64,000 nt of DNA. It comes from Yinghuangia seranimata (GTDB taxonomy: Bacteria > Actinomycetota > Actinomycetes > Streptomycetales > Streptomycetaceae). A model generated the notes under the pieces. The model did not search any database. It saw only the letters and a program-made list of their open reading frames with translations, and was not told the origin of the DNA. The position numbers were made by a program, and so were the translations under genes. Location of the stretch: NCBI RefSeq assembly GCF_029953285.1, contig NZ_JASAOI010000030.1, forward strand, positions 1 through 64,000, read 5' to 3'. Below are positions 31,424 through 36,222 of this stretch, in pieces (positions within the stretch are counted from its first letter, which is position 1; each line of letters opens with the position of its first letter).

Positions 31424-33181
31424 TTGGCCTCGACCGAGCAGGCGGCGGACGCCGCGAGACCAACCGTCGCGGTGGGCGCGGCTGATGACCGCGTGCCCGT
31501 CGGACGCACGTCGGACCCGCGCATGTCCGACGAACGCACATCCGACGGGCACGCGCCCGGTGGCGGAGCAACTCCTCGCCCGGGGCCGGTGCATCTGCAC
31601 CCGCCCCGGGCGATCGCCTTGGCCGGCGGCTGCCTCGCGCTCGCCGCACTGGCGCTCGAACACGCGGCGCCGGGACGCAGCACACTCGACGCCGCGGCTC
31701 CGGTGGTGGAACTCTGCGCGCTCGCGGGAGCCGTCATCACTCTGGCGCCGCGCCGCGGGCCCTGGGTGGTACTGGCGCTGCCCGTTCTCACCATGGTCGA
31801 ACTCCCGGTCTCCGTCGACGTGATCACGGCACTCGGGCTGGCGATCGCGGTCGCCGTCCTGGGTGTCGCCGTGCTGCGCGCGGCGCCGTGGCAGTGGCGC
31901 GACGTTCCCGTGGCGGCGCTGGCCGGAGTCGCCGGGGCGGCCCTCTATGCCGTCCCCAGCGTGTGGATACCGACGGCGGTCGTGCTCGCGGTGACCGTAC
32001 TGGTGCTGCTGACACCGCCCCTCGCCGTGCTGATTGCGGTCACGAGCGGACGTACGGACGAGCTCGAACGCCTGACCAGGCGGCTGTCCTGGCGTGTGCC
32101 GGTCGCGGCCCTGGGGGTGGCGGCGTGCCTGGTGCTGGCGATCCTCCTGCGCCCCGTCCTGCCCGCCTCGGGCCTGCTCGTCGTCTATGCGGCCGGAGCG
32201 ACCCACGTGGCGATCGCCGTGTGGTCGCACTCCCGCGGACGCCGGCTGGCGGAACAGGCGGCGCGGCACGAGGCGGTGCTCGAAGCGGCCATCCTCGTGC
32301 TGTCGGACGAGACCGCCGACCCGACCGACGCGCTGTGCCAGGTGGCCGAGTTGGCCGCCCGGGAACTGGGAGTCGACGGCGTCTCCGTGGAACTCGACAC
32401 CGTGGCCGGGGAGTACGGGCGTACCGTCGAGCCGCCGATCGACGTGGCCCTGGTGTGCCGCGGACAGGACCTGGGACGGCTGCACATCTATGCCGACGCG
32501 CCGCTGGACACGCGGACGTTGTCGACGGTCGACCGCCTGGCACGGCAACTGGCGGCGTTTGCCTATGCGGTGCTCCGGCTGGAAGAGGCCAGGGCCGCAG
32601 AACGGGAGCTCCTGCGCCGCGAACTCCACGACGGCGTGGGGCATGCCCTGGCGGCGGCCGTCATGAGGCTCGACCCCGACCGCAACCCCGAGGCGCTGCG
32701 GTCGGTGCTGGAGCCCGCACACGCCCAGGTGCGCGCCGCACTCGACGACCTGCGCGCCGTCGTACGCGGAGCCGCACCACCGCCGTTGGTCCGCGACGGC
32801 CTCGCGGACGCGCTGCGCGCGCTCACCCGCGACCTGGACAGCCCTGCGGTGCTGCTGACCTTCCACGGCGACTGCGGGGCGGTGACCGAGCCGGTGCAGC
32901 GCGACGTCTACCGGATCGTGCAGGAGGCGCTCACCAACGCACGCCGCCATGCGCACGCCACACGGGTGTTCGTCTCCGTACGCACCACCGACCGCCTGAA
33001 CGTCGAGATCGTGGACGACGGCCGCGGCCTGCCATCCGTGCTCGTGCCGGGTACGGGCCTGGCGTCGATCCGCGGCCGTGTCCACGGGATGGGCGGCACA
33101 TGCAGCATCGGCCGCGCGCCGGGCGGCGGGACGCGGGTGGCGTTCAGCGTCCCGCTGCGCGACGGGGCGGGGGCGTCATGA
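31424..33181 (+). CDS. Two-component sensor histidine kinase (NarL-partner, HisKA_3 type)
   Basis: 585 residues if started at TTG 31424, which has GGGGGGAG five bases upstream; GTG 31391 lies inside the preceding hairpin loop. A Ser/Thr/Ala-rich lead is followed by several hydrophobic segments (about residues 60-235), a GAF-like stretch, the dimerisation/phosphoacceptor box RRELHDGVGHALA (His 402), and an HATPase domain with NARRHAHA, DDGRGLP and GTGLASIRGRV. It overlaps the response regulator by 4 bp (ATGA). The signal is unknown; many membrane helices suggest an envelope or lipid cue. Confidence 0.85.
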   Translation: MASTEQAADAARPTVAVGAADDRVPVGRTSDPRMSDERTSDGHAPGGGATPRPGPVHLHPPRAIALAGGCLALAALALEHAAPGRSTLDAAAPVVELCALAGAVITLAPRRGPWVVLALPVLTMVELPVSVDVITALGLAIAVAVLGVAVLRAAPWQWRDVPVAALAGVAGAALYAVPSVWIPTAVVLAVTVLVLLTPPLAVLIAVTSGRTDELERLTRRLSWRVPVAALGVAACLVLAILLRPVLPASGLLVVYAAGATHVAIAVWSHSRGRRLAEQAARHEAVLEAAILVLSDETADPTDALCQVAELAARELGVDGVSVELDTVAGEYGRTVEPPIDVALVCRGQDLGRLHIYADAPLDTRTLSTVDRLARQLAAFAYAVLRLEEARAAERELLRRELHDGVGHALAAAVMRLDPDRNPEALRSVLEPAHAQVRAALDDLRAVVRGAAPPPLVRDGLADALRALTRDLDSPAVLLTFHGDCGAVTEPVQRDVYRIVQEALTNARRHAHATRVFVSVRTTDRLNVEIVDDGRGLPSVLVPGTGLASIRGRVHGMGGTCSIGRAPGGGTRVAFSVPLRDGAGAS

Positions 33182-33849
33182 CCACGCCGATCCGAGCCGT
33201 GATCGTCGACGACCACCCCACGTTCCGCGCCGGTCTGCGCACACTGCTGGCGGACATCCCGGAGCCCGGCGTGGAGATCGTCGCCGAGGCCTCCGGCGGG
33301 GACGATGCTGTCGCGAAAGCGGAGTCACTGCGTCCACAACTGGTCCTGATGGACCTTCAGATGCACGGCCCGGACGGCCGGGACGGGATCGAAGCGACGC
33401 GCCGGATAGCGGAGGCCTGCCCGGGGACGGGCGTCCTGGTGGTCAGCATGTTCTCCGACGCCGCGACCGTGCAGGCGGCCCTGGCGGCCGGGGCGCGGGG
33501 CTTCGTCCTCAAGGGCGCCTCCGCCGGCGAGATCACGGCCGCGGTGCGCGCGGTGGCCGCGGGATGCGCGTTCCTGGGAACGGGGGTCTCCGCCCTGCTG
33601 GCGGGCATGGCCTCCGGCTCCCGTCCCGCCCCGCGCCCGACGGGTCTGATGGGGCTCACCGATCGCGAGGCCGACGTCCTGAGGCTGCTGAACAGCGGTA
33701 TGGGCACCGGCGACATGGCACGCGCACTGCGGTTGAGCCCGAAGACCGTGCGGAACCACATGTCGAACGTCTTCGCCAAGCTGGGCGTGGCCAATCGCGC
33801 CCAGGCGGTGATCCGCGCGCGCGAGGCGGGCCTGAACGCGGAGCCGTGA
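33178..33849 (+). CDS. NarL/FixJ-family response regulator
   Basis: 223 residues from ATG 33178, coupled to the kinase. Receiver domain 5-120 with acidic pair Asp 11/Asp 12, phosphoacceptor Asp 59 (LVLMDLQM) and Lys in FVLKGAS. The C-terminal LuxR HTH has LTDREADVLRLLNSGM and LSPKTVRNHMSNVFAKLGV. A transcription activator or repressor for unknown targets; adjacent secreted proteins and the hydrolase at 34921 are candidates. The 3' end meets the long inverted repeat at once. Confidence 0.9.
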   Translation: MTTPIRAVIVDDHPTFRAGLRTLLADIPEPGVEIVAEASGGDDAVAKAESLRPQLVLMDLQMHGPDGRDGIEATRRIAEACPGTGVLVVSMFSDAATVQAALAAGARGFVLKGASAGEITAAVRAVAAGCAFLGTGVSALLAGMASGSRPAPRPTGLMGLTDREADVLRLLNSGMGTGDMARALRLSPKTVRNHMSNVFAKLGVANRAQAVIRAREAGLNAEP

Positions 33850-33850
33850 C

Positions 33851-34192
33851 GGAACTTCCGCTCCGTCGCGGCGACGCGTCGTCGGCTTGCGAGCGTGCCG
33901 CCTGACTTCGGGAGGCCCGCTCGGTCCCGGCGTGGAAACCGCTGGGCTGCACCGGGGTTGGTCCGTCTGCCGGCGGTGTCCTGGCGCCCCTCCCGATTTT
34001 TGATGGTCCGCGCGGCCGACCGGCTGTCAAGCCGCGGTGGATCTTGTACGAACAGGCGGCCTGTGCCGGGGTCGTGGGGGCGGCTTGACAGCCGCCCGTC
34101 CGCGCAGACAACCCGGCAGCTATCGGGAGGGGCGCGGGGTGTGAAGGCGCTTTGACTGCGCTGGTCGTGCCGGGCTGCCGTCCCAGCGTGGT
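33851..34192 (+). repeat. Long inverted repeat, left arm
   Basis: Begins 2 bp after the response regulator stop. Shared blocks with the right arm (reverse-complemented) include the identical 18-mer GCGTCGTCGGCTTGCGAG (33876-33893), CGGCGTGGAAACCG (33928-33941), CCCTCCCGATTTT, GTCCGCGCGGCC, CGCGGTGGATC, CTATCGGGAGGGG and CCCAGCGTGGT, in the same order. Small insertions and deletions separate the blocks. Confidence 0.85.
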
Positions 34193-34261
34193 CGCCGCCG
34201 ACTCCGTCGCCGGAAAGGCCCGCACCCCGCCCCTCCCGGTCGCCCCGCCACCCGCTTCACG

Positions 34262-34306
34262 ACCCTGGGAACCAAATGGACGCTGAGCGTCCATTCCGTT
34301 CCCAAG
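34262..34306. repeat. Central palindrome of the inverted-repeat region
   Basis: AATGGACGCT-G-AGCGTCCATT is a near-perfect palindrome flanked by GGGAAC and GTTCCC, giving an imperfect hairpin of about 40 bp between the two long arms. Confidence 0.75.
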
Positions 34307-34471
34307 ACCAAAGACACCCCTGCCGAAACGCCGGATTCAGGGCCTTTGCGATCATCGGGAGTGCGGAATCGGCGCCAGCCGCCCTCCCACACCAAGATCA
34401 TGAGAGGTTCGCCGCCACACATTTCCGCGAACCACTCATGAACAGGGAAAAACCGCGCCGCCCCGGCGCCC

Positions 34472-34813
34472 ACCACGCTGGGACCGCAGGACGGCAACGC
34501 GAAGCGCGCACGGCGCCTCCACACCGCCTCCCCCTCCCGATAGTTGCCGCGGTTTTAAGCGCGGCCGGGGCGGGGTCAAGGCGCCCCCACGAGCACAGGT
34601 CAGGCCGCCGGTACTTCGATGATCCACCGCGCCTTGACGCCGACCCGGCCGCGCGGACAATCAAAATCGGGAGGGGGAGGTGGCCGCCGTCGGCGGACAG
34701 GCCGGGGGACCGTGCATGGCCGACGGTTTCCACGCCGCGACCGAACGGGCCGCCAACGCAGATGGCGGCCGGCTCGCAAGCCGACGACGCGCCGCCGCAG
34801 CGGATCGGAATCC
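34472..34813 (-). repeat. Long inverted repeat, right arm
   Basis: Reverse-complement counterpart of 33851-34192. It ends at GGAATCC near 34813 and contains CTCGCAAGCCGACGACGC (34773-34790) and CGGTTTCCACGCCG (34724-34737). Arm length is about 340 bp in both copies. The hydrolase gene starts 107 bp beyond it. Confidence 0.85.
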
Positions 34814-34920: not shown

Positions 34921-36222
34921 GTGAGCGTGCGAGGCGGGGGCAGGGGCGGAGTGCGGCGGGCGGTCGGAGTCGTGGCGGCGGTGCTGGTGTTGGCGGCGCA
35001 GGCACCGACAGCGATGGCCCGGCCGGGAGCGGGCGACATGTCCGGGGTGCGCGAGACGTACGTGGCCGTGGACGGCGCGGATGCCCGCGTACGGGTGCTG
35101 AAGGTCGGGCCGAGCCGGGCCCGGAAGGTGCTCGTGCTCGTCGCGGGACAGTTCGGCGCTGCTGGCGGACTCGAGAAGCCGGCACAGGAGTTGGTGGCGC
35201 GGGCGCCTGACACTCAGGTGTGGGCCGTGGACCGCCGCGAGGCGGCGCTGTCCGACCTGCGGGGGTTCGCGGGGACGGCACAGGCGGCCGCCGACTACTA
35301 CCTGGGCGGGCGCTACCGGGCGCAGACGCCCCAGTCGGCGCCCTATGTCGCCGACTGGGGCCTGGCGACGGAACTGGACGACCTGCGGCGGGTCGTGCTG
35401 GCCGCGCGGGACGGCGGGCGCCGGAAGGTGGTGCTCGGCGGGCACTCGTGGGGTGCCACGACCGCGCTGGCCTATGCCGGTTGGGACTGGAACGGGCGGG
35501 CCGGCTACCGGGACCTGAGCGGGCTCGTCCTGATCGACGGCGGGGTGCACGACGCGTTCGCGGGGGAGGGGTACACGTACCGCGTCACGCCGGAGGAGGC
35601 CCGGGCGCGGGTCGAACGCATACGCACGGGCGAGGTGTTCGACCCGTCGGTGACGTTCGACCGCGCGGAGACGTTCGCCGTGCTCCAGCAATTGGCCGGC
35701 AAGTACGCGGTCGAGGCCCCGGATGAGCCGTCGGCGCTCGCGCCCCTGCTGCCCACGGTGTTGCGGCCCACTGTGCCGGTGACCAACCTCGGGCTGGTGA
35801 AGTGGCTGTACGCCGATCACCCCCTGGTTCCCGACCTTGCGGTGAACCCGGCCTACACGGACGCGGAAGATGTCGCCCACTCCCTCGCGGGCCCGAAGCC
35901 CGGGATGTACGAGTGGTATTGGCCGAACCGCCTGACGTTGGACCTGGAGGCGGCGGACCCGTTCGCGGACACGCCGACGGCGAGGCAACTCGGACTGCGG
36001 CTGTGGCATACGAAGGAGATCGACGTGCCGCTCTACTCGTTCGCGACAGGCCTCACCCACGGAACGGCCGACGAAGCGGCCCACTGGGTCGTCACGAACT
36101 CGCAGGTGCGTCAGGCGGAGTACGCCCGTGACGACGCCATGACCCACCTGGACCCGCTGCTGGCCGACGCCGAACGCAACACCTTTGTGCGGACGGTCGT
36201 CCCGTTCCTGGCTAGGACTTGA
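34921..36222 (+). CDS. Secreted alpha/beta-hydrolase
   Basis: 433 residues from GTG 34921 with GGGAGGAG upstream. Signal peptide about residues 1-38 (VVAAVLVLAAQAPTAMA). The hydrolase core has LVAGQFGAAGG, the nucleophile elbow GGHSWGATT (Ser 176) and LIDGGVHD. A late His in THLDPLLAD is a candidate for the triad. Length exceeds a minimal hydrolase, with an extra helical segment around 230-330. The substrate is unknown. It converges on the DUF397 gene with an 11-bp overlap. Confidence 0.8.
   Translation: MSVRGGGRGGVRRAVGVVAAVLVLAAQAPTAMARPGAGDMSGVRETYVAVDGADARVRVLKVGPSRARKVLVLVAGQFGAAGGLEKPAQELVARAPDTQVWAVDRREAALSDLRGFAGTAQAAADYYLGGRYRAQTPQSAPYVADWGLATELDDLRRVVLAARDGGRRKVVLGGHSWGATTALAYAGWDWNGRAGYRDLSGLVLIDGGVHDAFAGEGYTYRVTPEEARARVERIRTGEVFDPSVTFDRAETFAVLQQLAGKYAVEAPDEPSALAPLLPTVLRPTVPVTNLGLVKWLYADHPLVPDLAVNPAYTDAEDVAHSLAGPKPGMYEWYWPNRLTLDLEAADPFADTPTARQLGLRLWHTKEIDVPLYSFATGLTHGTADEAAHWVVTNSQVRQAEYARDDAMTHLDPLLADAERNTFVRTVVPFLART

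Follow-up and report, generated by a model that had tools for sequence, protein, structure and literature searches.

The locus considered here raises the question of what fills the roughly 1-kb gap, free of genes, that separates a response regulator gene from a hydrolase-like gene in the window (the whole 64,000-nucleotide stretch of Yinghuangia seranimata DNA that was analysed). The upstream gene (33178-33849, + strand) encodes Response_reg and GerE domains and is paired with a histidine kinase gene (HisKA_3, HATPase_c). The downstream gene (34951-36222, + strand), delimited by an ORF caller and with an uncertain start codon, is alpha/beta-hydrolase-like (PF00561 at 20.5 bits, under the cut-off of 25.8). 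An earlier note, made from the sequence of the window, had described a diverged inverted repeat of ordered shared blocks in this gap, and the alignment confirms both points: positions 33856-34200 match the reverse complement of 34464-34810 with ~76% identity (BLAST, 220 bits, E 5.6e-57; 75.8% in a second measurement), and the blocks 33856-33902/34764-34810 (87%), 33911-33941/34724-34754 (90%), 33987-34113/34551-34677 (74%) and 34168-34200/34464-34496 (85%) follow one another in the same order in the two arms.

The left arm, of the L type, occupies 33856-34200 on the + strand (outer to inner end) and was delimited by repeat search and BLAST, with an arm-profile match at 33924-34192 (201 bits); 6 bases separate it from the stop codon of the response regulator, which ends at 33849. 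The right arm, of the R type, runs from its outer to its inner end on the - strand (34464..34810; profile match 34471-34743, 206 bits). Each arm holds a hairpin of its own, which the earlier note had missed, as it had the repetition of the unit across the genome. The left-arm core (33975..34144, + strand), defined by alignment and pair counts, is built from an outer stem CCCCTCCCGAT/ATCGGGAGGGG and an inner stem CCGCGCGGCCG..GTCAAGCCGC/GCGGCTTGAC..CGTCCGCGC with the apex ACAGG-CGG-CCTGT; it matches the covariance model at 174 bits and folds at -78.5 kcal/mol (z -2.0, 150-nt cut). Its inner palindrome (34006..34109, + strand) pairs 34006-34035 with 34080-34109 (30 nt, 87% complementary). The right-arm core (34519..34688, - strand; outer stem ACCTCCCCCTCCCGAT/ATCGGGAGGGGGAGG) gives 163.5 bits and -78.4 kcal/mol (z -3.4, 150-nt cut), with an inner palindrome at 34559..34654 (- strand) that pairs 34559-34584 with 34629-34654 (26 nt, 92% complementary). 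On either strand, the window arms fold at z values of -2.0 to -3.8. The centre between them (34201..34463; 278 bp by the measure used for all paired elements) includes a 39-bp central palindrome, TGGGAACCAAATGGACGCT/AGCGTCCATTCCGTTCCCA, at 34266..34304. A promoter-like pair, TTGACG-16-GACAAT (9/12 matches, 0.0 expected in shuffles), overlies the right-arm inner stem at 34634-34661; the conserved stem sequence may be its source, a promoter being the alternative.

The arm is not confined to the window, and the absence of further copies, which the earlier note had named as grounds for refutation, is clearly contradicted. In a profile search of the genome to which the window belongs (9.8 Mb, 113 contigs), distinct arms scoring 60 bits or more numbered at least 107, spread over 80 loci and 42 contigs; the count is a lower bound because the covariance-model search described next scored 150 of 21,782 candidates. 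BLAST with the window arm returned 130 matches, counting both orientations of an arm; an arm of another subtype used as the query revealed further loci, and these stretches were then retrieved for profiling. A covariance model built from 83 arm cores gave at least 145 matches in the same genome, counting both strands of many arms. Two arms are present at 27 of the 80 loci, in the order '+ -' in all 27 (one arm being weak or cut in three of them), and 53 loci have one arm. Since an arm lies within 500 bp of 23 of the 226 contig ends, some of the single arms are cut pairs. The proposal of head-to-head copies of a repetitive, MITE-like element thus holds as regards repetition and inverted arrangement; neither of the classical signs of a MITE, a target duplication or a parent that carries a recognised transposase, turned up in the searches described below.

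The loci form two classes. In class A, to which the window copy belongs, an arm, a centre and an inverted arm together span ~780-960 bp; among the 24 pairs whose arms both exceed 120 bits, 20 have a centre of 221-257 bp, and the other four have centres of 278 (window), 344, 354 and 1307 bp (locus L164). Partner arms are 71-87% alike, apart from those of L164 (97%), and just 2 of the 48 paired arms have their own partner as nearest relative. This makes the left and right arms separate lineages, and the pairs seem to move as units. Class B elements consist of a lone arm followed by a 71-bp block, T, in the same orientation. Block T has 33 copies, of which 21 reach an identity of 95% or more to the query copy and the lowest stands at 79%; single-arm loci account for 27 of the copies, and the other 6 lie at or next to two-arm loci. 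It appears more conserved than the arms and ends (L228:3401-3471 and 32 other places) in the direct repeats GCGTCAC-ACTT-GCGTCAC, spaced 11 bp apart; a protein might bind there, or the block could mark the end of the element. By eye, three class B elements (L175 4100-4390, L226 and L235) have a variable number of ~60-bp tandem units (CTGCCGGGCTGCGG...) between arm and T, G/T-rich on the sense strand of the arm.

Outside this genome the arm is rare. BLAST found no long match in 60 relatives (short ones of up to 49 bits, with at most seven candidates per genome scored) and none at E 1e-6 in 296 genomes of the family (at most two candidates per genome scored). Across 61 family genomes the covariance model matched only the genome of the window and G002, a sister species of the same genus, and found no arm in a further member of the genus, G001; one of the covariance-model runs over family genomes scored 45 candidates per genome under stricter filters. 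The window element had no match in phages or plasmids, and a class B element none in plasmids. Viral contigs gave five single pattern matches that scored as chance, and no match to a 19-base piece of block T. A degenerate 20-base pattern retrieved at least 84 stretches from wider genome contigs, with a best arm-profile score of 17.3 bits over ~55 positions; they are taken as chance because none extends into an arm-profile match.

The single arm of G002 is diverged (51 bits, E 4.7e-7) and lies between ssrA and a gene whose protein we read as pfkB-like. It has the same orientation as the single arm L178 in the genome of the window, with flanks that are 80-85% identical. Rfam confirms the tmRNAs at both ssrA loci as its sole matches there. 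The G002 arm keeps most stem pairs, with five mismatched pairs marked, and is the only arm in the 1.58 Mb of that genome examined. Flanks of 20 other locus records were matched in G002, some of them clearly paralogous. Inspection of 15 sites showed six at which a single G002 stretch contains the two flanks and no arm: those of both L035 elements, L055, L230 and L234, and one that brings contigs C10 and C29 together. The second L035 element (1025 bp, versus 127 bp in G002) and the C10/C29 junction are the clean cases. One old site is thus common to both species, the rest representing either expansion in the lineage of the window or loss in the sister; with one arm in the outgroup, expansion is the simpler account. 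Downstream of ssrA in G002 (L223 2600-3400), an array of ~30-bp G+C-rich palindromes with similar spacers was seen by eye and looks like a different REP-like family.

We read the window element, with a probability of about 0.6, as one 'double' copy of a non-autonomous, lineage-specific intergenic repeat family, in which the arm beside ssrA was probably amplified and the hairpins may serve as gene ends. The ancestral arm, common to the sister species, would probably have been amplified in the lineage of the window by some enzyme copying it within the genome. The arm now occurs singly, about half of the time with block T, or as a fixed pair of left arm, centre and right arm that apparently travels as one unit. 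Copies survive mainly near gene ends, where such long hairpins may end transcripts in both directions, whether by terminating transcription, by insulating convergent genes from each other or by protecting mRNA 3' ends. A bolder version, which we regard as speculative and on balance improbable, is that of a portable two-way gene end that spreads inside one chromosome without a recognised transposase: the ancestral structured 3' element at ssrA would have turned into a replicating repeat, copied by some unrecognised means, perhaps of AbiEi/REase type or based on recombination, and would have supplied dozens of gene ends. Large palindromes count as unstable in bacteria; in this genome, nonetheless, a hairpin family with intact stems occupies at least 80 loci. 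The shared ssrA site together with the expansion in one species makes the origin and spread of REP/ERIC-like repeats testable, here without RAYT, and, should transcripts end at the arms, a large number of gene ends has been altered together by this one family.

Published repeats offer partial parallels. A survey of the literature on Streptomyces and other actinobacterial repeats, REP/RAYT, MITEs, ERIC and AbiEi/DUF559 at the level of titles and the opening parts of abstracts, with subscription papers outside its scope, brought up no matching family. In excerpts of the published accounts, REPs are 20-40 bp long (PMC3733652), often lie between convergent genes and are stated not to be specific terminators (PMC1525189), and the unit of copying is proposed to be the inverted REP doublet, with single palindromes occurring as well (PMC3116915). 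As described there, REP, BIME and REPIN sequences are, like the present family with its 107 arms, 80 loci and conserved hairpins, high-copy extragenic palindromes, and the inverted doublet of REPINs and BIMEs has its counterpart in the '+ -' order of 27/27 pairs, although 53 loci are single-armed, some cut by contig ends. They differ in scale, the arm here measuring ~270 bp and its core ~150 nt as against the 20-40 bp given for REPs, and in the partner of REPINs, the Y1 tyrosine transposase RAYT: Y1_Tnp (PF01797) had no match in the genome of the window, which is 98% complete, whereas a control search found it in 5 of 14 genomes. ERIC, IRU, RU-1 and other MITE-like repeats of 100-200 bp are summarised as intergenic and mostly non-coding, with transcripts that would form long stem-loops and a mobilising enzyme that is unproven; most are A+T-rich and show target duplications, short terminal repeats and 5'-TA ends (PMC2229807). 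Unlike the ERIC type in that summary, the present family is G+C-rich, several times larger and without a duplication signal. The CIR repeats of Caulobacter and Brucella also have two long stem-loop arms and a linker (PMC2229807), but as outlined in that source they are ~110 bp long, contain GANTC sites and are conserved across species, whereas the present family is ~780-960 bp long and expanded in one species. The family most resembles REPINs and ERIC/CIR-type repeats; we class it as an apparently undescribed, oversized family of REPIN/ERIC-like repeats that possibly acts as a portable gene-end hairpin.

Among the alternatives, that of a MITE-type deletion derivative survives best: the family would include a gene-bearing parent that encodes the mobilising enzyme, and the window copy would be the gene-less form. 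Terminal inverted repeats, as in MITEs, are confined to the paired class, with 76% identity in the window and 97% in L164, and two copies have an ORF of 326 or 328 aa between their arms, namely L164 (C75:38683-40483; ORF at L164:3941-4921) and L041 at the end of contig C36 (ORF at L041:4339-5325). The arms around it are nearly identical, at 97% over 290 bp in L164 and 98% over ~132 bp in L041, where the contig ends. The central palindrome of the window points the same way: a search with its 28-bp motif (up to 3 mismatches) found six sites in the genome, all in element centres: that of the window, one beside the ORF in L164 and four others. We accordingly see the window copy as probably related to the gene-bearing form.

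Several observations bear on whether the gene could encode a mobilising enzyme. Its N-terminus matches AbiEi_4 at 25.1 bits in one copy (cut-off 25) and 21.8 in the other, and one copy matches REase_MTES_1575 at 12.1 bits, far under the cut-off of 38.2; NCBIfam added nothing of note for the element ORFs. To judge from these matches the product is an AbiEi-like helix-turn-helix protein, perhaps with a REase-like C-terminus, and the gene-bearing copies thus have no recognised transposase. The two ORFs are 73% identical to each other and 36% identical to a third homologue in the genome, on contig C6, which has no arm within ~1.5 kb. Homologues at E 1e-20 occur in 85 of 200 family genomes, this one included; at 29 loci of relatives (~1.5 kb per side, less at contig ends), the gene is nowhere spanned by an inverted repeat scoring 38 bits or more. 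Both element ORFs have Asn in the ExD motif, where 15 of the 17 other aligned homologues have Asp (one has Glu and one Gly; 16 of the 29 relatives' loci entered this alignment). With a conserved Asp replaced by Asn, the nuclease, if the ORF is one, may therefore be inactive. A signal of target-site duplication was lacking in a test that the imprecise ends make weak (k-mer sharing between flanks 6.48, versus 6.36 when shuffled, maximum 6.63; 52 elements). The gene may be a passenger, and we consider the descent of the window copy from a mobilising, gene-bearing parent unlikely.

A second alternative holds that the family is not mobile but a selected structured RNA or terminator, its arms being functional 3'-UTRs or terminators copied by recombination and kept by selection. 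The conservation of structure speaks for it, as it does for the preferred reading. The basic arm is ~270 bp long, its core being a long nested hairpin of ~150 nt. The window and the first 57 stretches yielded 93 profile matches; a length filter kept 86, of which 85 showed a recognisable core and 83 were aligned, leaving out the second arm of L050, L065 and arms obtained later. Over these 83 arms, stem positions pair in 94.5% of cells, versus 87.4% in shuffled alignments (0/500 as high) and at most 49% when the alignment is slid, and stem covariation is 0.151 versus 0.051 (0/500). Eleven pairs changed on both sides, against 8.5 in shuffles (12/500), and three switch without exception: columns 20-177 (C-G/U-A, 52/31), 21-176 (G-C/C-G, 52/31) and 68-123 (G-C/C-G, 42/41). 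The number of pair types in this alignment is not above shuffles (21 vs 21.2). The arms fall into L, R and X subtypes, and since the switches track a few arm subtypes, they amount to few independent events. The stems thus appear to keep their pairing through compensatory changes, which are mostly among paralogues and may reflect few old events. The suggestion of a structured RNA locus may hold, the structure being conserved and largely retained by the sister arm at ssrA, but the working form may be either RNA or DNA: G-U cells (60) and A-C cells (58) are equally common, so there is no wobble-pair strand bias and no sign of which strand or nucleic acid is selected. Neither the window element nor one class B element scored close to a cut-off in Rfam, a collection that does not cover every DNA repeat.

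Position relative to genes bears on the same alternative and on the gene-end role in the preferred reading. Arms are intergenic and often start just behind a stop codon; by our own, unvalidated ORF caller, a gene runs in the sense direction into 60 of 87 arms and does not do so in 27. Gaps bearing elements are convergent in 24 cases, divergent in 6 and tandem in 29 (n=59), compared with 46, 80 and 155 of the other gaps of at least 30 bp (n=281), a convergent enrichment (Fisher 1.3e-4) and divergent depletion (2.8e-3) that weaken to 6.9e-4 and 0.025 when 76 shorter gaps (24/3/49) are added. In the 28 elements that combine arm and T, the T side faces a gene end at -14 to 43 bp in 15 cases, a gene start at least 67 bp away in 12 and no gene in 1; on the arm side there is a sense gene in 16, no more than 86 bp away in ten of them and 698-1074 bp away in the remaining six. 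The right arm of the window faces the start of the hydrolase gene and falls outside the gene-end rule. Like intrinsic terminators, the arms are G+C-rich hairpins often close behind stop codons, but their stem system is much longer and repeated, and a terminator consensus scan built no terminator on an arm hairpin, its two sites (0.7 expected) lying in or at the edge of the centre. Behind the response-regulator orthologue of G002 there is an ordinary hairpin instead of an arm, which speaks for this alternative. Against an immobile, selected family stand its many copies in one species only, among the genomes searched, the arms that lie behind no sense gene end and a sister species that manages with one arm, besides the missing G-U bias and the outcome of the terminator scan. 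We hold this alternative to be quite unlikely. For the preferred reading, the points against are that gene-end placement can also arise from selection against insertion elsewhere, that no Y1 transposase and no duplication signal were found, that G-U and A-C cells are equal in number and that 27 of 87 arms have no sense gene end before them.

Returning to the non-autonomous repeat family as the preferred reading, two further alternatives have practically no weight beside it. The earlier note had also offered a degenerate gene pair, because translations read outward from the centre begin alike (MDAQRPF and MDAERPF). That likeness is real and arises because both strands of the central palindrome at 34266-34304 are read. 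In the window the leftward frame remains open over 212 codons and the rightward one over all 300 codons tested, but spurious long frames are common at this G+C content, the similarity between the arms tracks the stems, and among six copies with the same centre the frames range from 20 to 300 codons (300 being the test limit) with no pattern, so they are not taken for genes; a head-to-head gene pair, degenerate or functional, was rejected as highly implausible. A chance resemblance or assembly artefact is about as remote, for although arms gather at contig ends as expected where repeats break an assembly, the flanks differ, many copies diverge by 15-25%, and the sister places the genes flanking the broken contigs C10 and C29 side by side. 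Beside the ancestral arm at ssrA, a ~55-bp palindrome (GAACCAGATGGACACC/GGTGTCCATCTGGTTC inside; L178:4056-4112) resembles the central palindrome of the window, which suggests that a second, small palindrome family may insert into these elements.
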